Below, piece after piece: positions 19,122-29,108 of a stretch of 64,000 bases of DNA (positions are counted from its first letter, which is position 1; each line of letters begins with the position of its first letter). Under the pieces are notes generated by a model. It was not told the origin of the DNA. It ran no database searches and saw only the letters and a program-made list of their open reading frames with translations. A program made the position numbers and the translations under genes. Origin of the DNA: Acidobacteriota bacterium (GTDB taxonomy: Bacteria; Acidobacteriota; Holophagae; Holophagales; Holophagaceae); NCBI GenBank assembly GCA_016192145.1, contig JACPUT010000008.1:124001-188000 (forward strand). Direction: 5' to 3'.

Positions 19122-21461
19122 ATGCGCATTGGCCTTCCCTTCTTTCATGTTTCCCGGCACCTGCTGGGGGGCCTGGGTTTGGGCCTGTTGCTCGCTTGCG
19201 GGAGCTCGGACGGCCCCAAGAACATCCTGAACCACTACGGGAACTACCACCCCTCGAGCTGGGTCGACGACGGCACCGCCAAGCACGCCAACGATCACCA
19301 AGGCCAGGCCGTCACCCAGCTCACCAATTGCCTGGGCTGCCATGCCCTCACGAAGCAGCAGGCGGGCAGCGGGGTTCCCGGCTGCCTCACCACGGGCTGC
19401 CACCACCAGACGGTGCCCAACTTCCGCACCGTGAACCACCAGCTCATCGATCCGACCCGGGGCAATGCCTGCGTGATCTGCCACTACCCGGGCTCCCTCA
19501 ACAACCCGCCGGATACGCCCAACGTCATCGTGCCCTCGGCCGGGGCGTCACCCAACTGCTTCAACGGAACCCTCTGCCATGGGGACGTGGCCGCCCCCCA
19601 TCCGACCCGGGCCAACTCCGGCGGGTTGGACTTCTGGCGGGATCCCAAGGTCGGCGGCGGAGCCTTCCACGGCGACCAGGCCAAGCAGAACCTGCGCTAC
19701 TGCCAGGGCTGCCACGGTACGCCCGGCACGGCCCTATTCAATGGGGGACCCCAGAAGTGCACGGACTGCCATAACGCCGCCACCGGCGCCGCGGCCCATC
19801 CCTCCCTTGCGGACAACTACGCGGGCCTCAGCGCCGGGGTGAATCCCTCCGTCTGGAATCAGGCCCCCAGCGTGTCCCCCTACGTGCCTTCCCATCGGGA
19901 CATGGGCGATGCCGCGACGGCCGACTGGCAGGTCCGGGCCAATGGCGCCGGCTGCAACATCTGCCACAACACCGCCTCGCCCACGGCGAGCCCGCTCCCG
20001 GCGGCCCCCACCTGCTTCAGTGCCAACTTCGCGCCCGTAGGCAGCGCCACCACCGGATGCCACGCCAGCGGCCCCGGCTCGGCCCCCCATCCCCTGGGCG
20101 CCATCTGGAAGGATCCCGGGGCGGGGGGCGGCGGCCCCACCATCTTCCACGGCGCGATGGCCAAGCAGGATCTCCTCTACTGCCAGACCTGCCACGGCAC
20201 GCCCGGCACCGCCCTCTTCGACGGCGGAACGGCCGCCACCGCCTGCAGCACCTGCCACAAGACGGCTGGCGCCGGGGCCCATCCCTCCCTATTGGACGAC
20301 TACTCCAGCCTGGGCGTCGGCGCCCCCACGGCCAAGGTCTGGAACCCCTCGGGCTCCCCTTCACCCTACGTGCCCTCGCACCGCACTTCGGGCAACCTCA
20401 GCACCGCCTGCGCCATCTGCCACAAGACCACGGCCCCCGCCACGGTGCCCTCCAGCGGCTTCGATGGTCCCTTGCCGGCCGCGCCCAACTGCTGGAGCGT
20501 CACGGTCACCCCGGCGGGCGGGGTCGCCACCAGCTGCCACGCCAACGGCCCCAGCGCCGCACCGACCCACCCCGTCCCCTTCCTGGCCGCCGATCGCACC
20601 ACGCCCCTCAACAACGGCCATATGAATGCCACTTCCGCCACCTTCACGGCCGAGTGCAGCACCTGCCATGTGCTGACGGGGACCTCCACCAACTCGGCCC
20701 CGGCCTGCGTCGTCTGCCACACTTCCGCGGCGACGAACTCACCCCTGGTCCCCGCCACGGGCACGGGCACCTGCCTCTCCTGCCACAGCAATGGGCCCTC
20801 GGCCCTGCCGGCCGGACCCACGGGCAGCACCTATCCCAACATCGCCGGTGCCCACGCCAAGCACCAGGCCCTTCCCGGGGTCGCTTGCGCCACCTGCCAC
20901 AACAACCTGGGGTCGGGCACCCTGGGCCACTACACCGCCGCCAACGCCCGCGTCACGGCGCCCACGGCCCCGGGGGCCATGAGCTTCCTGCCCGCCTATA
21001 ACGCCAAGTCCGGAGCCATCTCCGCCTCCGCGGCCGTGGCCCCCACCTGCTCCAACGTGGCCTGCCACGGTGGCAAGGTGACCCCGGTGTGGACGGGCTC
21101 CCTGCCCGCCATCTCCGATTCAAGCACCAGCAACACCTACTGCCTCGCATGCCACGCCTCCGGCACCAGTCAGTTCAACAGCTGGTTCAGCGGCGAGCAC
21201 ATCAAGCATGTGGGAAGCTCGGGCAGCGGCGGTGCGGGCTCCATGTGCACGGACTGCCACAACGTCACCACCGGCGCCGCGGGCGCGGCCCACTGGTCGC
21301 ACCTGGAGACCACGATCTTCGAAGGGACCCCCGCAGCCACCATCCAGTTCAGCGCCCGCGCCGCCTTCGGCGTGACCCCCACTTACGTCGGAGGCCGCTG
21401 CAACCTCACCTGCCACACCGCCACCGGCGAGCAGAAGAGCCACTCCTCCGAGCCCTGGTAG
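19122..21461 (+). CDS. Multihaem c-type cytochrome lipoprotein (CxxxxCH/CxxCH family)
   Basis: 779 residues, exported as a lipoprotein (lipobox LLLAC, Cys26). I count 14 canonical CxxCH haem motifs, plus CX3CH (CNLTCH), two CX4CH (CLTTGCH, CSNVACH) and CX5CH (CFNGTLCH). The CX4CH...CXXCH pairing is the hallmark of a family known mainly from Geobacter. Residues about 170-325 and 330-480 are an internal duplication: each has W(R/K)DP, FHG, AKQ, a CQxCHGTPGTALF haem site, AHPSL and SPYVPSHR. It should act in electron transfer in the periplasm or at the outer membrane, perhaps to extracellular acceptors. It heads a co-directional set with further cytochromes. The ATG at 19122 is chosen for the lipoprotein signal. 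Confidence 0.9.
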   Translation: MRIGLPFFHVSRHLLGGLGLGLLLACGSSDGPKNILNHYGNYHPSSWVDDGTAKHANDHQGQAVTQLTNCLGCHALTKQQAGSGVPGCLTTGCHHQTVPNFRTVNHQLIDPTRGNACVICHYPGSLNNPPDTPNVIVPSAGASPNCFNGTLCHGDVAAPHPTRANSGGLDFWRDPKVGGGAFHGDQAKQNLRYCQGCHGTPGTALFNGGPQKCTDCHNAATGAAAHPSLADNYAGLSAGVNPSVWNQAPSVSPYVPSHRDMGDAATADWQVRANGAGCNICHNTASPTASPLPAAPTCFSANFAPVGSATTGCHASGPGSAPHPLGAIWKDPGAGGGGPTIFHGAMAKQDLLYCQTCHGTPGTALFDGGTAATACSTCHKTAGAGAHPSLLDDYSSLGVGAPTAKVWNPSGSPSPYVPSHRTSGNLSTACAICHKTTAPATVPSSGFDGPLPAAPNCWSVTVTPAGGVATSCHANGPSAAPTHPVPFLAADRTTPLNNGHMNATSATFTAECSTCHVLTGTSTNSAPACVVCHTSAATNSPLVPATGTGTCLSCHSNGPSALPAGPTGSTYPNIAGAHAKHQALPGVACATCHNNLGSGTLGHYTAANARVTAPTAPGAMSFLPAYNAKSGAISASAAVAPTCSNVACHGGKVTPVWTGSLPAISDSSTSNTYCLACHASGTSQFNSWFSGEHIKHVGSSGSGGAGSMCTDCHNVTTGAAGAAHWSHLETTIFEGTPAATIQFSARAAFGVTPTYVGGRCNLTCHTATGEQKSHSSEPW

Positions 21462-21500
21462 TCCTCATATCCCTGAATCCACCCCCATAAGGAGGCCCCC

Positions 21501-21857
21501 ATGGCCCGAATCACCCGAATCCTCGTTCCCATGCTCCTGCTCGGTTCCATGAACCTCATGGCCGACGACAAGGAGGCCCCCAAGTTCACCGGCGGCGATC
21601 TGAAGAAGTATTGGACCGACGCCTGCGCCCGCTGCCATGGCGCCACCGGCAACGGTCGGGATGCCAACGGCAAGCAGCTGCCCGATGCCGGTTTCGACTT
21701 CACCGAGGCCCGCAAGGCCAATAAGAAGAAGGATGCCGACTGGGTGAAGGTCACCCTCGAGGGCAAGGACAAGATGCCCGCCTTCAAGGGGAAGATGACC
21801 GAAGCGGACGTCCAGAAGATGATCACCGAGGTGCTCCGGAAGTTCGCGGCTAGGTAG
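21501..21857 (+). CDS. Monohaem c-type cytochrome, periplasmic
   Basis: 118 residues with a signal peptide (cleavage near NLMA-DDK), one haem site CARCH (42-46) and a probable axial Met in DKMPAF (Met92). It is a small class I-like cytochrome c. 39 nt after the multihaem gene with its own AAGGAGG, so it likely shares its transcript and shuttles electrons to or from it. Confidence 0.9.
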   Translation: MARITRILVPMLLLGSMNLMADDKEAPKFTGGDLKKYWTDACARCHGATGNGRDANGKQLPDAGFDFTEARKANKKKDADWVKVTLEGKDKMPAFKGKMTEADVQKMITEVLRKFAAR

Positions 21858-21906
21858 CCGCCGCGAACCCTGCCAGGATCTGCCCGAACCCGAATCCGGA
21901 GTCCCC

Positions 21907-22830
21907 ATGCCGTCCCGTTTGAACGTCTCCCTCCTCGCCTGCGGCCTCCTGGCCGGGGGCGTCCTCCAGGCCCAATCCTCCGAGTACCCCCTGGCCATCA
22001 ATCTGCCCACGGTGGATCGGATGCAATTCTGGGATCTGGGCGTGGCCTTCACCCACCGCTTCGCGGCGCCGGTGAAGGACCACGGGAAGGATGCCTACGG
22101 GCTGGACGGCCTGGCCTATGCCGGCGTGGGGGTGGCCATCGGATTCAAGCCCGTCAAGGGGCTCAACATCCTGCTCTATCGCACGGCCGACAACAAGACC
22201 TTCACCCTCGGCTTCCAGCAGCAGGTGATGGACACGGAGTTCTTCCGCATGGCCTTCCGGGCCGAACGCTATGACGAAGTGGTGGATCGCTACGCGCCTC
22301 CCGCCGGCGCCACGCTGAACAACGCCACCGCCTACGAACGGGGCGTCATCGGCGGCAGCTTCCAGGTGCCCATGGAGATTTTCTTCCCGGGTGACCGGGT
22401 GATGCTCACCCTGGTGCCCACCTACCTGACCCGCACCACCACGAGCAACTTCAAATTCTCCTCGGATGGCGCGACGCCGCCGGTCTACCAGCCGGGTCTC
22501 ACGCCGGCGAAGAAGGGCAGCGGCGTCTTCAACCTTGGCGTGGGCGTGCGGGTGAACTTCACCGAGGCCTTCGGATGGGTCACCGAGTTCTACCCCAAGC
22601 CCTCCCGGTTGCCTTCGGACACCTTCAGGGCGGGGTTCGCCACGGGCATCACCTACAAGACCTTCAAGCACCGCTTCACCCTGACGGCCAGCAACGTTCA
22701 CGGCACGACCGCGAACCAGGTTCTGGGGGGGGATTACGACCACTACCGCACCACCGACGGGAAGGATGGGGCGGGTCCCTGGCCTTCCTCCCAGTGGTCT
22801 CTTGGCTTCAACGTGTCCCGCGTGTTTTGA
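21907..22830 (+). CDS. Outer-membrane beta-barrel protein (DUF5777-like)
   Basis: 307 residues with a signal peptide (cleavage after VLQA). Alternating hydrophobic strands run throughout and the C-terminal residue is Phe (NVSRVF), as in outer-membrane barrels. It resembles DUF5777 proteins often encoded beside cytochromes. Lying between a monohaem cytochrome and a membrane cytochrome, it may be a porin-like component of an electron conduit, but that is positional inference. 49 nt after the previous gene. Confidence 0.72.
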   Translation: MPSRLNVSLLACGLLAGGVLQAQSSEYPLAINLPTVDRMQFWDLGVAFTHRFAAPVKDHGKDAYGLDGLAYAGVGVAIGFKPVKGLNILLYRTADNKTFTLGFQQQVMDTEFFRMAFRAERYDEVVDRYAPPAGATLNNATAYERGVIGGSFQVPMEIFFPGDRVMLTLVPTYLTRTTTSNFKFSSDGATPPVYQPGLTPAKKGSGVFNLGVGVRVNFTEAFGWVTEFYPKPSRLPSDTFRAGFATGITYKTFKHRFTLTASNVHGTTANQVLGGDYDHYRTTDGKDGAGPWPSSQWSLGFNVSRVF

Positions 22831-22843
22831 GCGAGTCTCGACG

Positions 22844-23848
22844 ATGACCTCTCCCCTGCTCGATTTCATCGCCCGGGAGCACCCGGCCTTCGTCCATGTG
22901 CCCTTGGGGTTGGTGGTGACGCTTCCCCTGGCGATGTTGGGTTCCTTCCGCGCGAAGGGATCCCGTCGTTGGGTCCGCACCTCCTTCTTCATGGCGGTCG
23001 TGGGCCTCCTCGGGAGCATCGTCGCCCTGATCAGCGGCTTGATGTGGGGTCGGCAGATCAACCTCATCCCGGCCGGCGCCCTGTTCCCCACGGTGGCATC
23101 CGACACCCAGGTGCTCCAGCGGATGATGCAGCTCCACGAAATCGCCGCCGTGAGTGGCGTCGTGGTGGGTTCCATCTGTATCTGGCTGATCTGGCGCGTG
23201 TGGCACCCCATGGATGTGGCCAACGAGGACACGGCCATCCACTTCCGCCAGCAGATGGGCCGTCGCCTCTGGGAGCGGGGAGTGGGCGCGCCCGCCCTCG
23301 TGATGAGCCTGCTCTGGCTCGGCTGTTGGGGTTTCTGCGGGAAGCTGGGCGGCATCATGGTCTTCGGGAACGAGGAAACCAACAGGGCCGCGGCCGCGGC
23401 GGACGCCATCCGGAAGAACGATGTGGAGGCGGAACTCCCGATCCGCGCCCTGGATTACGCCAGCCTGGAACCGGTGCAGGCCGCGCCGTTCCTTTCGAAG
23501 GCCCACGGGGGCCACTGGGCGCGGGTGTGGGTGACGGCCTCCTTCGGCGCCGACAAGTACAAGGCGGGCGCGCCGCTGCCCTCCGGGGCCTACGTCGTCA
23601 TGAACACCGTGCTGGATGCCAAGGGCAAGCCCGGCTTCGAGAGCGGGCCCCTGCTCCTGCGGGAGACGAACGCCGACGGCAGCACGGGATTCGCCTACTA
23701 CTGGGGCCGGGTGCCCGAGGCGAACCGCGCCGAAACGGGCGGGGATGACATGCCCTACTGGCGCAGCGGCGATCCCAAGACCGCCCCCAAGGTGGCTGGC
23801 TGCGCGGGTTGCCACGCGGATGCGGGCCCGGCCAAACCGATGCCCTGA
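22844..23848 (+). CDS. Membrane protein: DUF2231-like domain fused to a P460-like cytochrome domain
   Basis: 334 residues. The N-terminal ~195 residues hold about four transmembrane helices and begin with the DUF2231-like EHPAFVHVPLGL; His residues in the helices could bind haem b. After a final helix (about 150-170), a soluble domain (about 205-334) resembles cytochrome P460: HGGHWARVWVT, LPSGAYVVMN, GFAYYWGR and one haem site CAGCH near the end. The fusion of a quinol-facing-like membrane domain to a periplasmic cytochrome would suit electron export from the membrane. Starts 13 nt after the barrel gene; the upstream part of the open frame is out-of-frame barrel sequence. Confidence 0.72.
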   Translation: MTSPLLDFIAREHPAFVHVPLGLVVTLPLAMLGSFRAKGSRRWVRTSFFMAVVGLLGSIVALISGLMWGRQINLIPAGALFPTVASDTQVLQRMMQLHEIAAVSGVVVGSICIWLIWRVWHPMDVANEDTAIHFRQQMGRRLWERGVGAPALVMSLLWLGCWGFCGKLGGIMVFGNEETNRAAAAADAIRKNDVEAELPIRALDYASLEPVQAAPFLSKAHGGHWARVWVTASFGADKYKAGAPLPSGAYVVMNTVLDAKGKPGFESGPLLLRETNADGSTGFAYYWGRVPEANRAETGGDDMPYWRSGDPKTAPKVAGCAGCHADAGPAKPMP

Positions 23849-23875
23849 GCGGATTTCCGCCCTTCGAGAGGTGCC

Positions 23876-24604
23876 ATGCGCCTGAATGTAGCAATGCTGA
23901 TGCTGGCGCTAAGTGCCTCGGGCTGCCGGAACAAACCGGGCACCGCCCAAGCGCCCCCTCCTGCCGCGGCCCCGGATGCCGAGGGCAGGCTCAAGGGGCG
24001 AGTGGCGGAGCGCATCGACGCACCCCCCTACAGCTACCTCCGGCTCACGGTCGGCCGGGGTGAAGCCTGGGCGGCCGTGCCCCAGGCAACCCTGGCGGCC
24101 GGCGCCGAGGTGGTGGTGATCGGGGCCGCCCCCATGGAAAACTTCGAATCCAAAACCCTCAATCGCAAGTTCCCGTTGGTCTACTTCGGCACCCTTGAAT
24201 CCCCGGGCGGGCCCACGGAACAACGCGGGATCCAGCACGCCCTGGCGGCGCAGGGACCATCGGACGTGGTGGTCCCCAGGATCTCGAAGGCCTCCGGCCC
24301 CGAGGCGCGCACGGTAGCTGAGGTTCACCAGCAGAAGGATGGGCTCAGGGATAAGGCCGTGGTGATTCAGGGCCAGGTGGTGAAGGTGAACAACGGCATC
24401 ATGGGCCGGAACTGGGTGCATCTCCGGGATGGAAGCGGGGCAGGGCCCACGGCCGACCTCACCTTCACCACCCGGCAGCAGGCCACGGTCGGGGAGGTTG
24501 TGATCTTGCGTGGCGTGGTTCGGATCGAGAAGGATTTCGGCGCGGGTTACCGATATCCCGTGATCATCGAGGACGGCACCATCACGCGGCCCAAGAGGCG
24601 GTAG
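23876..24604 (+). CDS. Lipoprotein with OB-fold domain
   Basis: 242 residues with a lipobox (LSASGC, Cys17) and a Pro/Ala linker. The first part forms a small beta domain (GRVAERIDAPPYSYLRL); residues about 140-235 resemble an OB-fold nucleic-acid-binding-like domain (VVIQGQVVKVNNGIMGRNWVHLRDG). Such lipoproteins occur beside cytochrome genes, possibly in haem-protein assembly. 27 nt after the P460-like gene, last of the co-directional cytochrome set. Confidence 0.65.
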   Translation: MRLNVAMLMLALSASGCRNKPGTAQAPPPAAAPDAEGRLKGRVAERIDAPPYSYLRLTVGRGEAWAAVPQATLAAGAEVVVIGAAPMENFESKTLNRKFPLVYFGTLESPGGPTEQRGIQHALAAQGPSDVVVPRISKASGPEARTVAEVHQQKDGLRDKAVVIQGQVVKVNNGIMGRNWVHLRDGSGAGPTADLTFTTRQQATVGEVVILRGVVRIEKDFGAGYRYPVIIEDGTITRPKRR

Positions 24605-25503: not shown

Positions 25504-26250
25504 ATGGAAACCGAGACCCTCACCCCGCTGCTTGAACCTCCAAGCCTGGGCACCCTTCCCAAGGGCACCCGGGGGCGCGCTCTCGTCCTCTCCGCTGCGA
25601 TCTACGGGGGGCTTTTGGCGGGGGTGACCTCCTTGCTCCTCCCCTCGCGGCCGGCGGCCCCGACCCAGCGCACCCTTTCCGTGTCTTGGGATGACTTCGA
25701 CGCCTGTTCGGCTCCACCGGCCCCACCGCCTGCGTCCGGGGCCCCGGGCCCTGCCACCGCCTCGCCCCAAGCCCCCTCCCCGGTGGAGACGCCGAGTTCG
25801 CCGCTGCCTTTGGGGGAAGTGGATCCCGCGATTCACTTCCCGCTGCCAGCCCCCACCCCGGCCGCGGAAGGCCCGGGCGGGCCGCAGGGAAGCCCTTCGG
25901 GCGGGCAGGCGGGGGGCGTTGCCGGCGGGCAGGCCGGGGGTACGGTCGGAGGGCGGGTGGGGGGCATCGTCTCGCCCCGCTTCGATGCCGCCTACCTCCA
26001 GAATCCCGAGCCCGACTATCCGAGCATCTCCAAGCGTCTTGGGGAAGAGGGCCGCGTGGTCCTCCGGGTGCATGTCAACGAGGCGGGTCTCGCCGACCAG
26101 CTGGAGATCCGCCAAAGCAGCGGGCACCTCCGCCTCGATCAGGCGGCGCTCGGCACCGTGCGCCGTTGGCGCTTCATCCCCGCCCGCCGGGGTTCCGAAA
26201 CCCTCGCCGCCTGGGTGCTCGTTCCCCTCTCCTTCTCCCTCGACGCCTGA
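25504..26250 (+). CDS. TonB family energy-transducing protein
   Basis: 248 residues: a short cytoplasmic N-terminus, one transmembrane helix (about 26-46), a Pro/Ala then Gly-rich periplasmic spacer (about 70-155) and a C-terminal TonB domain (PEPDYPSISKRLGEEGRVVLR onward, including the VRRWRF motif). It transmits proton-motive force from an ExbB/ExbD complex (not in the window) to outer-membrane receptors. It lies upstream of a siderophore receptor, behind a Fur-like box. Confidence 0.87.
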   Translation: METETLTPLLEPPSLGTLPKGTRGRALVLSAAIYGGLLAGVTSLLLPSRPAAPTQRTLSVSWDDFDACSAPPAPPPASGAPGPATASPQAPSPVETPSSPLPLGEVDPAIHFPLPAPTPAAEGPGGPQGSPSGGQAGGVAGGQAGGTVGGRVGGIVSPRFDAAYLQNPEPDYPSISKRLGEEGRVVLRVHVNEAGLADQLEIRQSSGHLRLDQAALGTVRRWRFIPARRGSETLAAWVLVPLSFSLDA

Positions 26251-26257
26251 ACCCTCC

Positions 26258-26294
26258 GGATTCCCCGACCCGGCCTCACGAGGCCTGGGGATCC
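26258..26294 (+). other. Intergenic hairpin in the iron-uptake operon
   Basis: GGCCTC/GAGGCC (26272-26277, 26280-26285) forms the inner stem and GGATTCCCC/GGGGATCC (26258-26266, 26287-26294) the outer stem with one bulged T. No T-run follows. It may protect or separate the tonB and receptor messages. Confidence 0.35.
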
Positions 26295-26314
26295 CCTATC
26301 CGTATAGGACCGCC

Positions 26315-28432
26315 ATGCTCAGCTCCGCCCTCTTCTGCCTCGTCGCCGGAATGCCCGGCCAGGACCCCGCCCCCCAGGCGCCCCCGGCCACCGAAACCGC
26401 CCTCCCGGAAGTGAAGGTCAAGGGGAAGAAAGGCCTCAAAAAAGCCGATCCCAAGCAGGCCTACCATGAGCCCACGGCCACCACCGCGGCCAAGGTGGAT
26501 GCCCCCCTCAAGGACATTCCCCAAACCGTGAATGTGGTGACCGAAGCCCTGCTCCAGGACCAGGGGGCGAAGTCCATGCAGGACGCGCTGCGCACCGTGG
26601 CCGGCGTGGGCCTCAGCAGCGGCGACGGCCAGCGGGATCAGGTCTCCATCCGGGGCTTCTCGGCCATCGGCGATCAGTTCGTGGACGGACTTCGGGACGA
26701 CGCCATGTACTTCCGGGACCTCTCCAACGTGGCCCGGGTGGAGGTGCTGAAGGGGCCCGCTTCCGTGCTCTATGGCCGCGGCAGCTCCGGCGGCGTCATC
26801 AACCGCGTGACCAAGAAGGCCGACGGGGCGCGCCATGGGGACCTGGAGCTCATGGGCGGTTCCTTCGACCAAAAGCGGGCCGCCCTGGATTTCGGAAATA
26901 CGGCCACGGAGTCCATCTCCTACCGGGCCACCGCGGCACTGGAACGCAGCGGGGGGTTCCGGAACCAGGCCTTCCTGGAGCGCGAGGCCGTCACCCCCTC
27001 CGCCCTGTTCAATTTCGGCAAAGACACCAGCCTCGTGGTCCAGTTCGACCACCTCCGCGATAAGCGCACGACGGATTTCGGCATCCCCTCCCTGGACGGA
27101 CGTCCGGTGGACGTGCCCCGGGAAACCTACTACGGCTCGCCCGACGCCCGCCGCGAGGACTTCACGGAGTCCACCATGGAGGCTGGGTACCTCCGCTTCG
27201 ATCACCGATTCAGTCGAACGCTCGAACTGCGCAACACCATCCGCACCTACGATTTCGAGTTGGACCGCCACAACACCATGCCCGGCCAGGTGCTGGCCGC
27301 AACGCGGCAGGTGCGCCTCAATCACGGCGATGTCTCACGCCAGGAACGAGGCTGGTTCAATCAATTGGAGTTGGTGCACCGCGCCTCCACGGGTCCGGTG
27401 TTCCATGAGCTGCTCTACGGCGTGGAACTGGGCCATCAACGCAAATACGGACGCTTCGCCAGCTTCACCAACGTCGCCACCGTAGATCTTTTCAACCCCG
27501 TGCTGAAGCCGCTGACCCTGGGCACGCCTTCCGTGACCGAGACCGTGGCGGACCAAAGCACCACCGCCTTCTACCTTCAAGATCTCATCACCTTCTCGGA
27601 CCGTTGGAAGGCGCTGGTGGGCCTGCGCCATGACCGCTACCTCCAGGAGACCGAATTGCAGCGGCCCGCACCCGGCCGCCTGGAGCGCACGGACGCCGCC
27701 TGGAGCCCCCGGGCGGGCCTCGTGTTCCAGCCGGACGCGGTGCAGTCCTGGTACCTCTCCTTCAGCCGCAGCTTCCAACCCTCGGGCGAGCTCACCCAAT
27801 TGTCGGCCAACAACGCCAAGATCGAACCCGAGCAGACCCGCAACCTGGAAGCGGGCCTGAAATTGGACCTCCTCAAAGGCCGGGCCTCCGCCACCTTCTC
27901 GGTGTTCGACCTCCAACGGACGGGCATCAAAAGCTCGGATCCCGCGAATTCCGCCCTCCTCGTGCCCATCGGAACCCAGCGCACCCGAGGCCTCGAAGCC
28001 ACCTTCGACGGCCAGGTTGGCACCGCCTGGCGCCTGCACGGGGGCTACGCGTACCTGGACGCGCGGCTCACCAAGTCCACGCCCGGTACCAAGGTCGGGG
28101 GGGTTCCCGTGGAAGGTCACCGGCCCTCCCTCACCCCGCTGAACAGCGGGAATGTGTGGGCGGACTGGGCCTTCACCCCGGGGTGGAGCGCAGGCCTGGG
28201 CGTCAACGCCTCCGGGGACCGCTACGCATCCGCTTCCAACCTGGTGCGCCTGGGGGGGTACGTCACCTTCGACGCGGCCCTGCGCTTCCGCGCCCGGAGC
28301 TGGGAACTGGCCCTCAACGCCTACAACCTCACCAATCGGAAGTACATCGCGTCCGGCCATGGTGGCAGCGATATCCTGCTGCTCCCCGGAGGGCCCCTCG
28401 CCGCCCAGGTAACCGTTCGCATCCACTTTTAG
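26315..28432 (+). CDS. TonB-dependent siderophore receptor
   Basis: 705-residue outer-membrane receptor. A short signal region (ALFCLVAGMPGQ) and a linker precede the plug domain (about 60-190: KDIPQTVNVVTEALL, VSIRGFSAIGDQFVDGLRDD, VLKGPASVLYGRGSSGGVIN), followed by a 22-strand-type barrel ending in aromatic Phe (VTVRIHF). The plug motifs match FhuE/FptA-like ferric-siderophore receptors. The ATG at 26315 has AGGA 5 nt upstream; the frame is open further back only because it shadows tonB. Energised by TonB encoded just upstream. Confidence 0.92.
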   Translation: MLSSALFCLVAGMPGQDPAPQAPPATETALPEVKVKGKKGLKKADPKQAYHEPTATTAAKVDAPLKDIPQTVNVVTEALLQDQGAKSMQDALRTVAGVGLSSGDGQRDQVSIRGFSAIGDQFVDGLRDDAMYFRDLSNVARVEVLKGPASVLYGRGSSGGVINRVTKKADGARHGDLELMGGSFDQKRAALDFGNTATESISYRATAALERSGGFRNQAFLEREAVTPSALFNFGKDTSLVVQFDHLRDKRTTDFGIPSLDGRPVDVPRETYYGSPDARREDFTESTMEAGYLRFDHRFSRTLELRNTIRTYDFELDRHNTMPGQVLAATRQVRLNHGDVSRQERGWFNQLELVHRASTGPVFHELLYGVELGHQRKYGRFASFTNVATVDLFNPVLKPLTLGTPSVTETVADQSTTAFYLQDLITFSDRWKALVGLRHDRYLQETELQRPAPGRLERTDAAWSPRAGLVFQPDAVQSWYLSFSRSFQPSGELTQLSANNAKIEPEQTRNLEAGLKLDLLKGRASATFSVFDLQRTGIKSSDPANSALLVPIGTQRTRGLEATFDGQVGTAWRLHGGYAYLDARLTKSTPGTKVGGVPVEGHRPSLTPLNSGNVWADWAFTPGWSAGLGVNASGDRYASASNLVRLGGYVTFDAALRFRARSWELALNAYNLTNRKYIASGHGGSDILLLPGGPLAAQVTVRIHF

Positions 28433-28445
28433 TCGCCGGAATCCG

Positions 28446-29108
28446 ATGCACCCACCCCTTCACGCCACCGCCTACCGCCACCTCCCGAGGCGCTCCCGGA
28501 AGGCGCAAGTCCTGCGCCTCCTCCGGAAACTCCACGCCTGGATCGGCCTTGGTGGAGCTGCCTTCGGGCTCCTCTTCGGCCTCACGGGATTCCTGCTCAA
28601 CCACCGGGGCATGCTGAAGATCGAAGCGGGCCAGATCCAGGAGCGGAAGGTCGCGGTTGAATTGCCGGTGATCCCGGCGAGCCCCGAAGCCCTGGCGCGG
28701 GGGCTCGCGGCGCGCTTCAACGTGCCCATGGCCCGGGTGAAGTGGCTGACCAAGGCGGGGAAGGCGGGGCGCATCGGGGGCACCCCCCTCCAGACGGCGG
28801 ACCAGTGGACCGTGGCCTTCATGGGCCACGCCCACTTCGCCCTCGCCACCTACACGCCGGGCAACCGCACCGTGGAGCTGGAACAGAAGGATGCGAACTT
28901 CGTGCAGGCCCTAAAACGCCTGCACAAGGGCGATGGGGGGCAGCTGGGATGGATCCTGCTCTCGGATGCCTTCGCGGGAGCTCTCCTCTTCCTCACGCTG
29001 TCCGGGACCCTGCTCTGGACGCGATTGGCAGGCTCCAAGCTCCTCGCTGTGGGACTCGCAGGAGCGGGGCTACTGACGGGGATCTTGGTGCCCGCCCGGG
29101 GTTGGTGA
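28446..29108 (+). CDS. PepSY-associated membrane protein
   Basis: 220 residues. An N-terminal helix (about 33-53) opens the protein after KLHAWIGLGG, the start typical of PepSY-TM proteins, followed by a periplasmic PepSY-like region (about 60-150) and two C-terminal helices (about 175-215). PepSY-TM proteins in iron operons are proposed inner-membrane ferric-siderophore reductases. 13 nt after the receptor gene, so third gene of the operon. It is shorter than the usual four-helix form. Confidence 0.78.
   Translation: MHPPLHATAYRHLPRRSRKAQVLRLLRKLHAWIGLGGAAFGLLFGLTGFLLNHRGMLKIEAGQIQERKVAVELPVIPASPEALARGLAARFNVPMARVKWLTKAGKAGRIGGTPLQTADQWTVAFMGHAHFALATYTPGNRTVELEQKDANFVQALKRLHKGDGGQLGWILLSDAFAGALLFLTLSGTLLWTRLAGSKLLAVGLAGAGLLTGILVPARGW

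Follow-up and report, generated by a model that had tools for sequence, protein, structure and literature searches.

Gene content of the locus

The window considered here is a stretch of 64,000 nucleotides (nt) from a member of the Holophagaceae (Acidobacteriota), a family of soil- and sediment-dwelling bacteria, located on contig JACPUT010000008.1 at positions 124,001 to 188,000 (contig C6 of genome G000, 3.8 Mb, in this study). It contains a cytochrome locus of five genes encoding a multihaem lipoprotein (gene 1), a monohaem cytochrome (gene 2), an outer-membrane β-barrel (gene 3), a membrane cytochrome (gene 4), and a further lipoprotein (gene 5), which follow one another head to tail on the + strand; successive genes are separated by 39, 49, 13, and 27 nt (Table 1). 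An earlier interpretation of the window from its letters and translations, termed here the sequence-only reading, had described five open reading frames (ORFs) separated by 13-49 nt and had suggested that they could form an electron-export module resembling a conduit. All five ORFs are present at the position and on the strand it assigned to them, and the measured gaps agree with its range.

Table 1 Features of the cytochrome locus, in window coordinates
Feature	Position	Strand	Remarks
Gene 1: multihaem c-type cytochrome lipoprotein, 779 aa, 20 CXnCH sites	19122..21461	+	
Gene 1 lipobox cysteine Cys26 (LLLAC-GSS), predicted lipidation site	19197..19199	+	from sequence; lipobox in nearly all orthologues
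Gene 1, two tandem tetrahaem units (residues ~156-312, 313-475), spacing 2-2-2-14 each	19587..20546	+	
Gene 1 non-canonical CX14CH haem site 1	20013..20063	+	same site is CX9CH in other genera
Gene 1 non-canonical CX14CH haem site 2	20490..20540	+	
Gene 2: periplasmic class-I monohaem cytochrome c, 118 aa	21501..21857	+	haem site CARCH 21624-21638
Gene 3: DUF5777 outer-membrane β-barrel, 307 aa, 12 modelled strands	21907..22830	+	
Gene 4: DUF2231 four-helix membrane domain and C-terminal P460-like c-type cytochrome domain, 334 aa	22844..23848	+	CxxCH 23801-23815; invariant H13, H98
Gene 5: OB-like lipoprotein, 242 aa; adjacent, outside the conserved module	23876..24604	+	

Conservation of genes 1 to 4 in the Holophagaceae

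Orthologues of the barrel gene were found in named Geothrix species and in metagenome-assembled genomes of the Holophagaceae. The sequence-only reading had proposed a search for the same gene order in other genomes and had named separation of the genes in all relatives as the outcome that would speak against it. Order and strand of genes 1 to 4 are identical in all 50 orthologous Holophagaceae locus records holding the four genes, a count in which many genomes appear twice (two overlapping collections were used) and in which the genomes are related, so that the records are not independent events. The clustering of genes 1 to 4 is far beyond chance, and the median gaps within the conserved module are short (48, 23, and 21 nt). 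Moreover, the orthologues of genes 2 and 4 occur together: among 39 sampled Holophagaceae genomes, both are present in the same 22 and both are absent from the same 17. One co-inherited unit is thus strongly supported for four of the five genes of the proposed conduit, and the adverse outcome named in the sequence-only reading does not apply.

Gene 5 was rejected as a member of this unit, as it is missing from the operon in every other locus; its relatives lie more than 6 kb downstream and on the opposite strand in nine Geothrix-type loci. The product had been described as an OB-fold lipoprotein, of which the lipoprotein part holds, the OB-type matches being below threshold. Upstream of gene 1, an alanine dehydrogenase gene ends at a distance of about 355 nt, and a short-chain dehydrogenase gene starts 53 nt past gene 5. 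Alanine dehydrogenase, short-chain dehydrogenase, acyl-CoA dehydrogenase, and gene 5 stand beside none of the 20 orthologous loci first fetched, and on these grounds the two flanking dehydrogenases were also rejected as members. Promoter-like matches in the region fall near 25.47 kb only, and the operon promoter was not located. Further downstream (25504-29108), the translations indicate a TonB-like protein, an ORF resembling a TonB-dependent receptor, and a PepSY-like membrane protein, a set of genes reminiscent of a cluster for the uptake of iron or siderophores.

The multihaem lipoprotein and its spacing code

After the lipobox Cys26, gene 1 encodes 40 cysteines, which form exactly 20 CXnCH sites with none left unpaired, the haem sites being motif predictions. 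Fourteen of these are CX2CH, two CX4CH, one CX3CH, one CX5CH, and two CX14CH; the first four types match the 14 CxxCH and several CX3-5CH sites counted in the sequence-only reading, which had overlooked the two long ones. CX14CH is a genuine haem site in the structure of OmcZ (PMC9473688; PMC11208441). In gene 1, one of the CX14CH positions has a spacer of 14 residues in some species and of 9 in others with both ends conserved, which supports its assignment as a true haem site. Direct alignment of residues 156-312 with 313-475 reveals a clear tandem repeat, unlike a BLAST search of the protein against itself, which detected no repeats. The CxxxxCH/CxxCH profile TIGR01904 gave 24.2 bits, below its curated cut-off of 27, and a sequence search of the PDB returned just one marginal match, to a cytochrome c3.

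The 25 distinct full-length orthologues contain 14, 18, 20, 22, 26, 30, 34, 40, 42, or 50 sites and share a spacing code in which nearly every cysteine is paired as CXnCH; exceptions with unpaired cysteines are L058/L085 and L099, whose start is uncertain, and L092 with one such cysteine. In nearly all orthologues, the code consists of two caps, one N-terminal (2422252...) and one C-terminal (...224223), that enclose none to two tetrahaem units (222-14 or 222-9) and none to four octahaem units (22422[3/4]22). In our own parsing of the spacer strings, the predicted site number of nearly all orthologues can accordingly be written as 14 + 4a + 8b, the chains being built from 4- and 8-haem units. 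The protein of the window, with 20 sites, looks like the 22-site form minus two early CX2CH sites. In L067 (896-4864; 40 sites), the code is exactly that of the 14-site form followed by that of the 26-site form, an apparent fusion of two whole genes in tandem.

The monohaem and membrane cytochromes

The monohaem cytochrome recognised by the sequence-only reading is confirmed by a Pfam match of gene 2 to PF13442 (5e-10), which places it among the class-I monohaem cytochromes. Its orthologues are 61-74% identical across the family and share an invariant methionine in the motif KMPAFK.

Gene 4 had been described as a DUF2231/P460-like protein. The DUF2231 assignment stands (Pfam, 7e-8), with four membrane helices preceding a C-terminal c-type domain that carries one CxxCH site. 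The P460-like part is weakly supported: 11 of 25 homologues touch the cytochrome P460 family PF16694 (best E value 0.003), the window protein itself being unmatched. All 25 homologues retain two histidines, H13 and H98; these would lie near the periplasmic side if the C-terminal domain is periplasmic, and they may possibly form a haem b or quinol site. A sequence search of the PDB found no useful relative, and the gene 4 model, when compared with known folds, recovered nothing but generic four-helix bundles, among them cytochrome b561 (Z about 10.5), CcmF, and oxidase subunits, at a level below what is informative for helical bundles. In the literature searched, the single paper that mentions DUF2231 describes a general database of domains of unknown function, and no role in electron transfer was found for DUF2231. 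Nearly all Holophagaceae also possess a stand-alone paralogue of gene 4 with the same DUF2231 and P460-like cytochrome domains (G000:C7:14086-14973 and its orthologues L039-L051), which is often divergent from a SIS/GmhA-like gene and has no multihaem or barrel neighbour.

Structure and family of the DUF5777 barrel

Gene 3, correctly recognised as an outer-membrane barrel in the sequence-only reading, has as its sole Pfam match the family DUF5777 ("membrane bound beta barrel", PF19089) with an E value of 3.9e-15 and 56.2 bits against a cut-off of 23.1. An AlphaFold2 model built on a 59-sequence alignment has 12 strands, a predicted local distance difference test score (pLDDT) of 84.8, and a predicted template modelling score (pTM) of 0.82. 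The nearest solved folds are KdgM, NanC, FapF, COG4313, and NalP (Z about 17-19 over 166-220 residues, root-mean-square deviation 2.1-4.7); a sequence search of the PDB with gene 3 gave no useful relative. Ten residues (H50, R51, D67, R92, E227, H255, G300, F301, N302, and R305) are invariant in all 59 relatives, which extend down to about 19% identity. Judged from the strand order of the model, H50, R51, D67, R92, and E227 would point towards the outer side and H255 and R305 towards the periplasm. The segment G300...F307 resembles a C-terminal β-signal.

Two known classes of electron-conducting barrel were considered and rejected for gene 3. It is not an MtrB-type porin, as it matches no MtrB/PioB family in NCBIfam and has 12 modelled strands, compared with 26 in MtrB/PioB (PMC8406198). 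Nor is it a homologue of Cyc2, a 16-strand protein with the motif AXPXFAR[QK][TY] before a single CXXCH (PMC8406198): the motif core P.FAR[QK][TY] was absent from every ORF of at least 60 aa in all loci fetched at the time of the scan.

DUF5777 proteins and electron carriers beyond the Holophagaceae

PF19089 is present in 116 of 396 sampled Acidobacteriota genomes (about 30%). Outside the Holophagaceae, the barrel is fused or adjacent to a one-electron carrier (haem c, CuA, or blue copper) in 62 of 83 loci, as opposed to 2 of 60 control genes, which were other genes of the same loci scored alike and thus represent a simple control that is not corrected for phylogeny. The 62 cases comprise 29 barrels with an N-terminal haem motif, 2 with an N-terminal CuA motif, and 31 near a carrier gene, i.e., within 600 nt of a small secreted gene of the haem, CuA (CX3CX3HX2M), or blue-copper type. 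This initial scoring overlooked some neighbours owing to overlapping ORFs, and inspection by eye adds six carrier neighbours outside the figure of 62 of 83. Two fusions were confirmed with Pfam, one of cytochrome c (L143) and one of a cupredoxin (L165) to DUF5777.

The identity of the neighbouring carrier is variable. A second DUF5777 copy in the Holophagaceae adjoins a Tat-type Rieske protein (L155, L158, L160, L161, and L162; Pfam-confirmed at L155), whereas in G053 (L163) it adjoins a monohaem cytochrome instead, an apparent swap of electron carriers. On four Bacteroidota plasmids (L232-L235), a small haem lipoprotein and YceI stand beside DUF5777 in every case, and the Emticicia locus among them also contains a Rieske protein (Rieske-DUF5777-YceI-cytochrome). 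A barrel that remains constant while the carrier varies is the pattern expected if the barrel interacts with a one-electron carrier. In other Acidobacteriota, CuA-type cupredoxins (CX3CX3HX2M) are fused to or located just upstream of DUF5777 (L146, L149, L173, L179, L184, L193, L196, L200, and L224); a CuA site beside an outer-membrane barrel is unusual. The literature searched, which excludes most subscription papers, contains no mention of DUF5777.

A more general proposal, which we regard as speculative and rather improbable, is that DUF5777 barrels act as small gates for electrons in the outer membrane of Acidobacteriota and Bacteroidota and constitute a class that had so far gone unrecognised. 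These would be served by interchangeable periplasmic carriers (haem c, CuA, blue copper, or Rieske), either fused or separate, and would pass electrons via the invariant His/Arg/Asp/Glu site or a bound cofactor in the 12-strand barrel; in the Holophagaceae, electrons would pass from the gate to a haem wire at the cell surface, and the number of 4- and 8-haem units would determine how long this wire is.

Proposed mechanism and alternative explanations

With moderate confidence, genes 1 to 4 are interpreted as a Holophagaceae-specific module for extracellular electron transfer in which electrons would pass from gene 4 via gene 2 and the barrel to gene 1. The inner-membrane DUF2231/P460-like cytochrome (gene 4) would take electrons from the quinone pool by oxidizing quinol, the monohaem cytochrome (gene 2) would ferry them over the periplasm, the 12-strand DUF5777 barrel (gene 3) would dock gene 2 at the outer membrane and allow electron passage, and the gene 1 protein would form a surface-exposed haem wire, differing in length between species, that reaches outside acceptors. 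Co-inheritance, gene order, haem-site content, modular wire length, and the association of DUF5777 with carriers are derived from sequence and the barrel fold from a model; the electron path and its outward direction are inferred. Several points weigh against this interpretation. As modelled, a 12-strand barrel would have no obvious means of passing electrons across the membrane unless it holds a cofactor of its own, and the gene 1 protein could stay on the periplasmic face. In L164 (G061), gene 1 is directly followed by the barrel gene, genes 2 and 4 not being there, and about a fifth of the DUF5777 loci are without a nearby carrier.

The main mechanistic rival, in our view an unlikely one, is a split system resembling Cyc2, in which the barrel admits a small soluble molecule acting as donor or shuttle (Fe(II), flavin, or quinone) and electrons are exchanged between this molecule and the monohaem carrier at the periplasmic mouth, the gene 1 protein serving as an electron store on the periplasmic side or at the surface; the flow may then be inward. 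In Cyc2, a single protein joins a monohaem cytochrome to a porin, whose pore Fe2+ has to enter (PMC8406198). The fusion of one N-terminal haem or copper domain to the barrel in 31 of 83 DUF5777 loci and the invariant charged residues of the barrel are in line with such a system, but none of the loci examined contains the motif PXFAR[QK][TY], the modelled barrel has 12 strands instead of 16, and a giant multihaem protein would not be needed for this role. Far less probable is a classical porin-cytochrome conduit of the kind known from MtrCAB or OmbB-OmaB-OmcB, in which part of the multihaem protein would sit inside the barrel. Such a conduit would account for the shared operon of barrel and multihaem lipoprotein, and porin-cytochrome complexes of the MtrB and ExtB/E types have been reported elsewhere in Holophaga genomes (PMC7399161). 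The number of strands speaks against it: Mtr-type porins possess 26 and Cyc2 possesses 16, compared with about 12 in the model of this protein of 307 aa, which has its closest folds among KdgM, NanC, FapF, and COG4313. In this respect, the conduit suggested by the sequence-only reading needs revision, the modelled barrel having too few strands to enclose a multihaem protein in the way MtrB/PioB do. Furthermore, apart from the monohaem gene 2 product, which is no multihaem protein, the operon encodes no separate periplasmic partner, and the genome holds an MtrB-type porin elsewhere.

It is also conceivable, though again doubtful, that the barrel serves as a common solute channel or as an anchor and that the operon encodes a periplasmic respiratory or detoxification system, for which P460-like chemistry acting on hydroxylamine or NO and the storage of haem are examples, with no electrons crossing the outer membrane. 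Barrels of 12 strands with known structure are mostly solute channels or translocators, and the weak P460 match of gene 4 would fit such chemistry. On the other hand, the pairing of DUF5777 with many chemically different one-electron carriers is unlike a plain pore, and a lipoprotein with 14-50 haems is costly and strictly co-inherited.

Relation to known systems and significance

Like Mtr/Pcc systems (MtrCAB, OmbB-OmaB-OmcB, and Ext clusters), the operon combines an outer-membrane barrel with a candidate multihaem outer-membrane lipoprotein. It differs from them in that a 12-strand DUF5777 barrel replaces the large porin (as judged from Pfam, the MtrB/PioB profiles, and the model), a monohaem partner replaces the periplasmic multihaem protein, and a DUF2231/P460-like gene is part of the operon. 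The host, moreover, has a separate MtrB homologue: TIGR03509 (MtrB/PioB) maps to another locus of the genome (G000:C7:203225-206513, 256 bits) with ten CxxCH sites just upstream, and these together are taken, on sequence grounds, as the canonical conduit of the organism. With Cyc2, the module shares the coupling of one single-haem domain to a modest outer-membrane barrel, many DUF5777 relatives being true N-terminal fusions; unlike Cyc2, it has the carrier on a gene of its own and an additional multihaem wire.

The mixture of CX4CH and CX2CH sites, the below-cutoff match to TIGR01904, and the CX14CH site verified in OmcZ relate gene 1 to the large extracellular cytochromes of Geobacter (TIGR01904) and to OmcZ. 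In contrast to these, the gene 1 proteins are single chains of 14-50 predicted sites built from modules and encoded in a conserved barrel operon. The role proposed for gene 4, a membrane cytochrome feeding periplasmic carriers, resembles that of the quinol oxidases ImcH and CbcL, but gene 4 encodes a four-helix protein of the DUF2231 family that carries a single c-type haem site. No description of the operon of genes 1 to 4 was found in the literature on Geothrix and Holophaga cytochromes that was searched. Outer-membrane electron-transfer modules as such are already known; most likely, the module described here is a new kind of module for extracellular electron transfer.

In Geothrix and its relatives, the locus provides a specific and testable candidate for an electron-transfer operon. 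In addition, it connects the uncharacterised DUF5777 barrel family, a barrel type not previously linked to electron transport, with electron carriers. The orthologous putative haem wires with 14-50 sites form a natural series that would be useful for relating wire length to long-range electron transfer.

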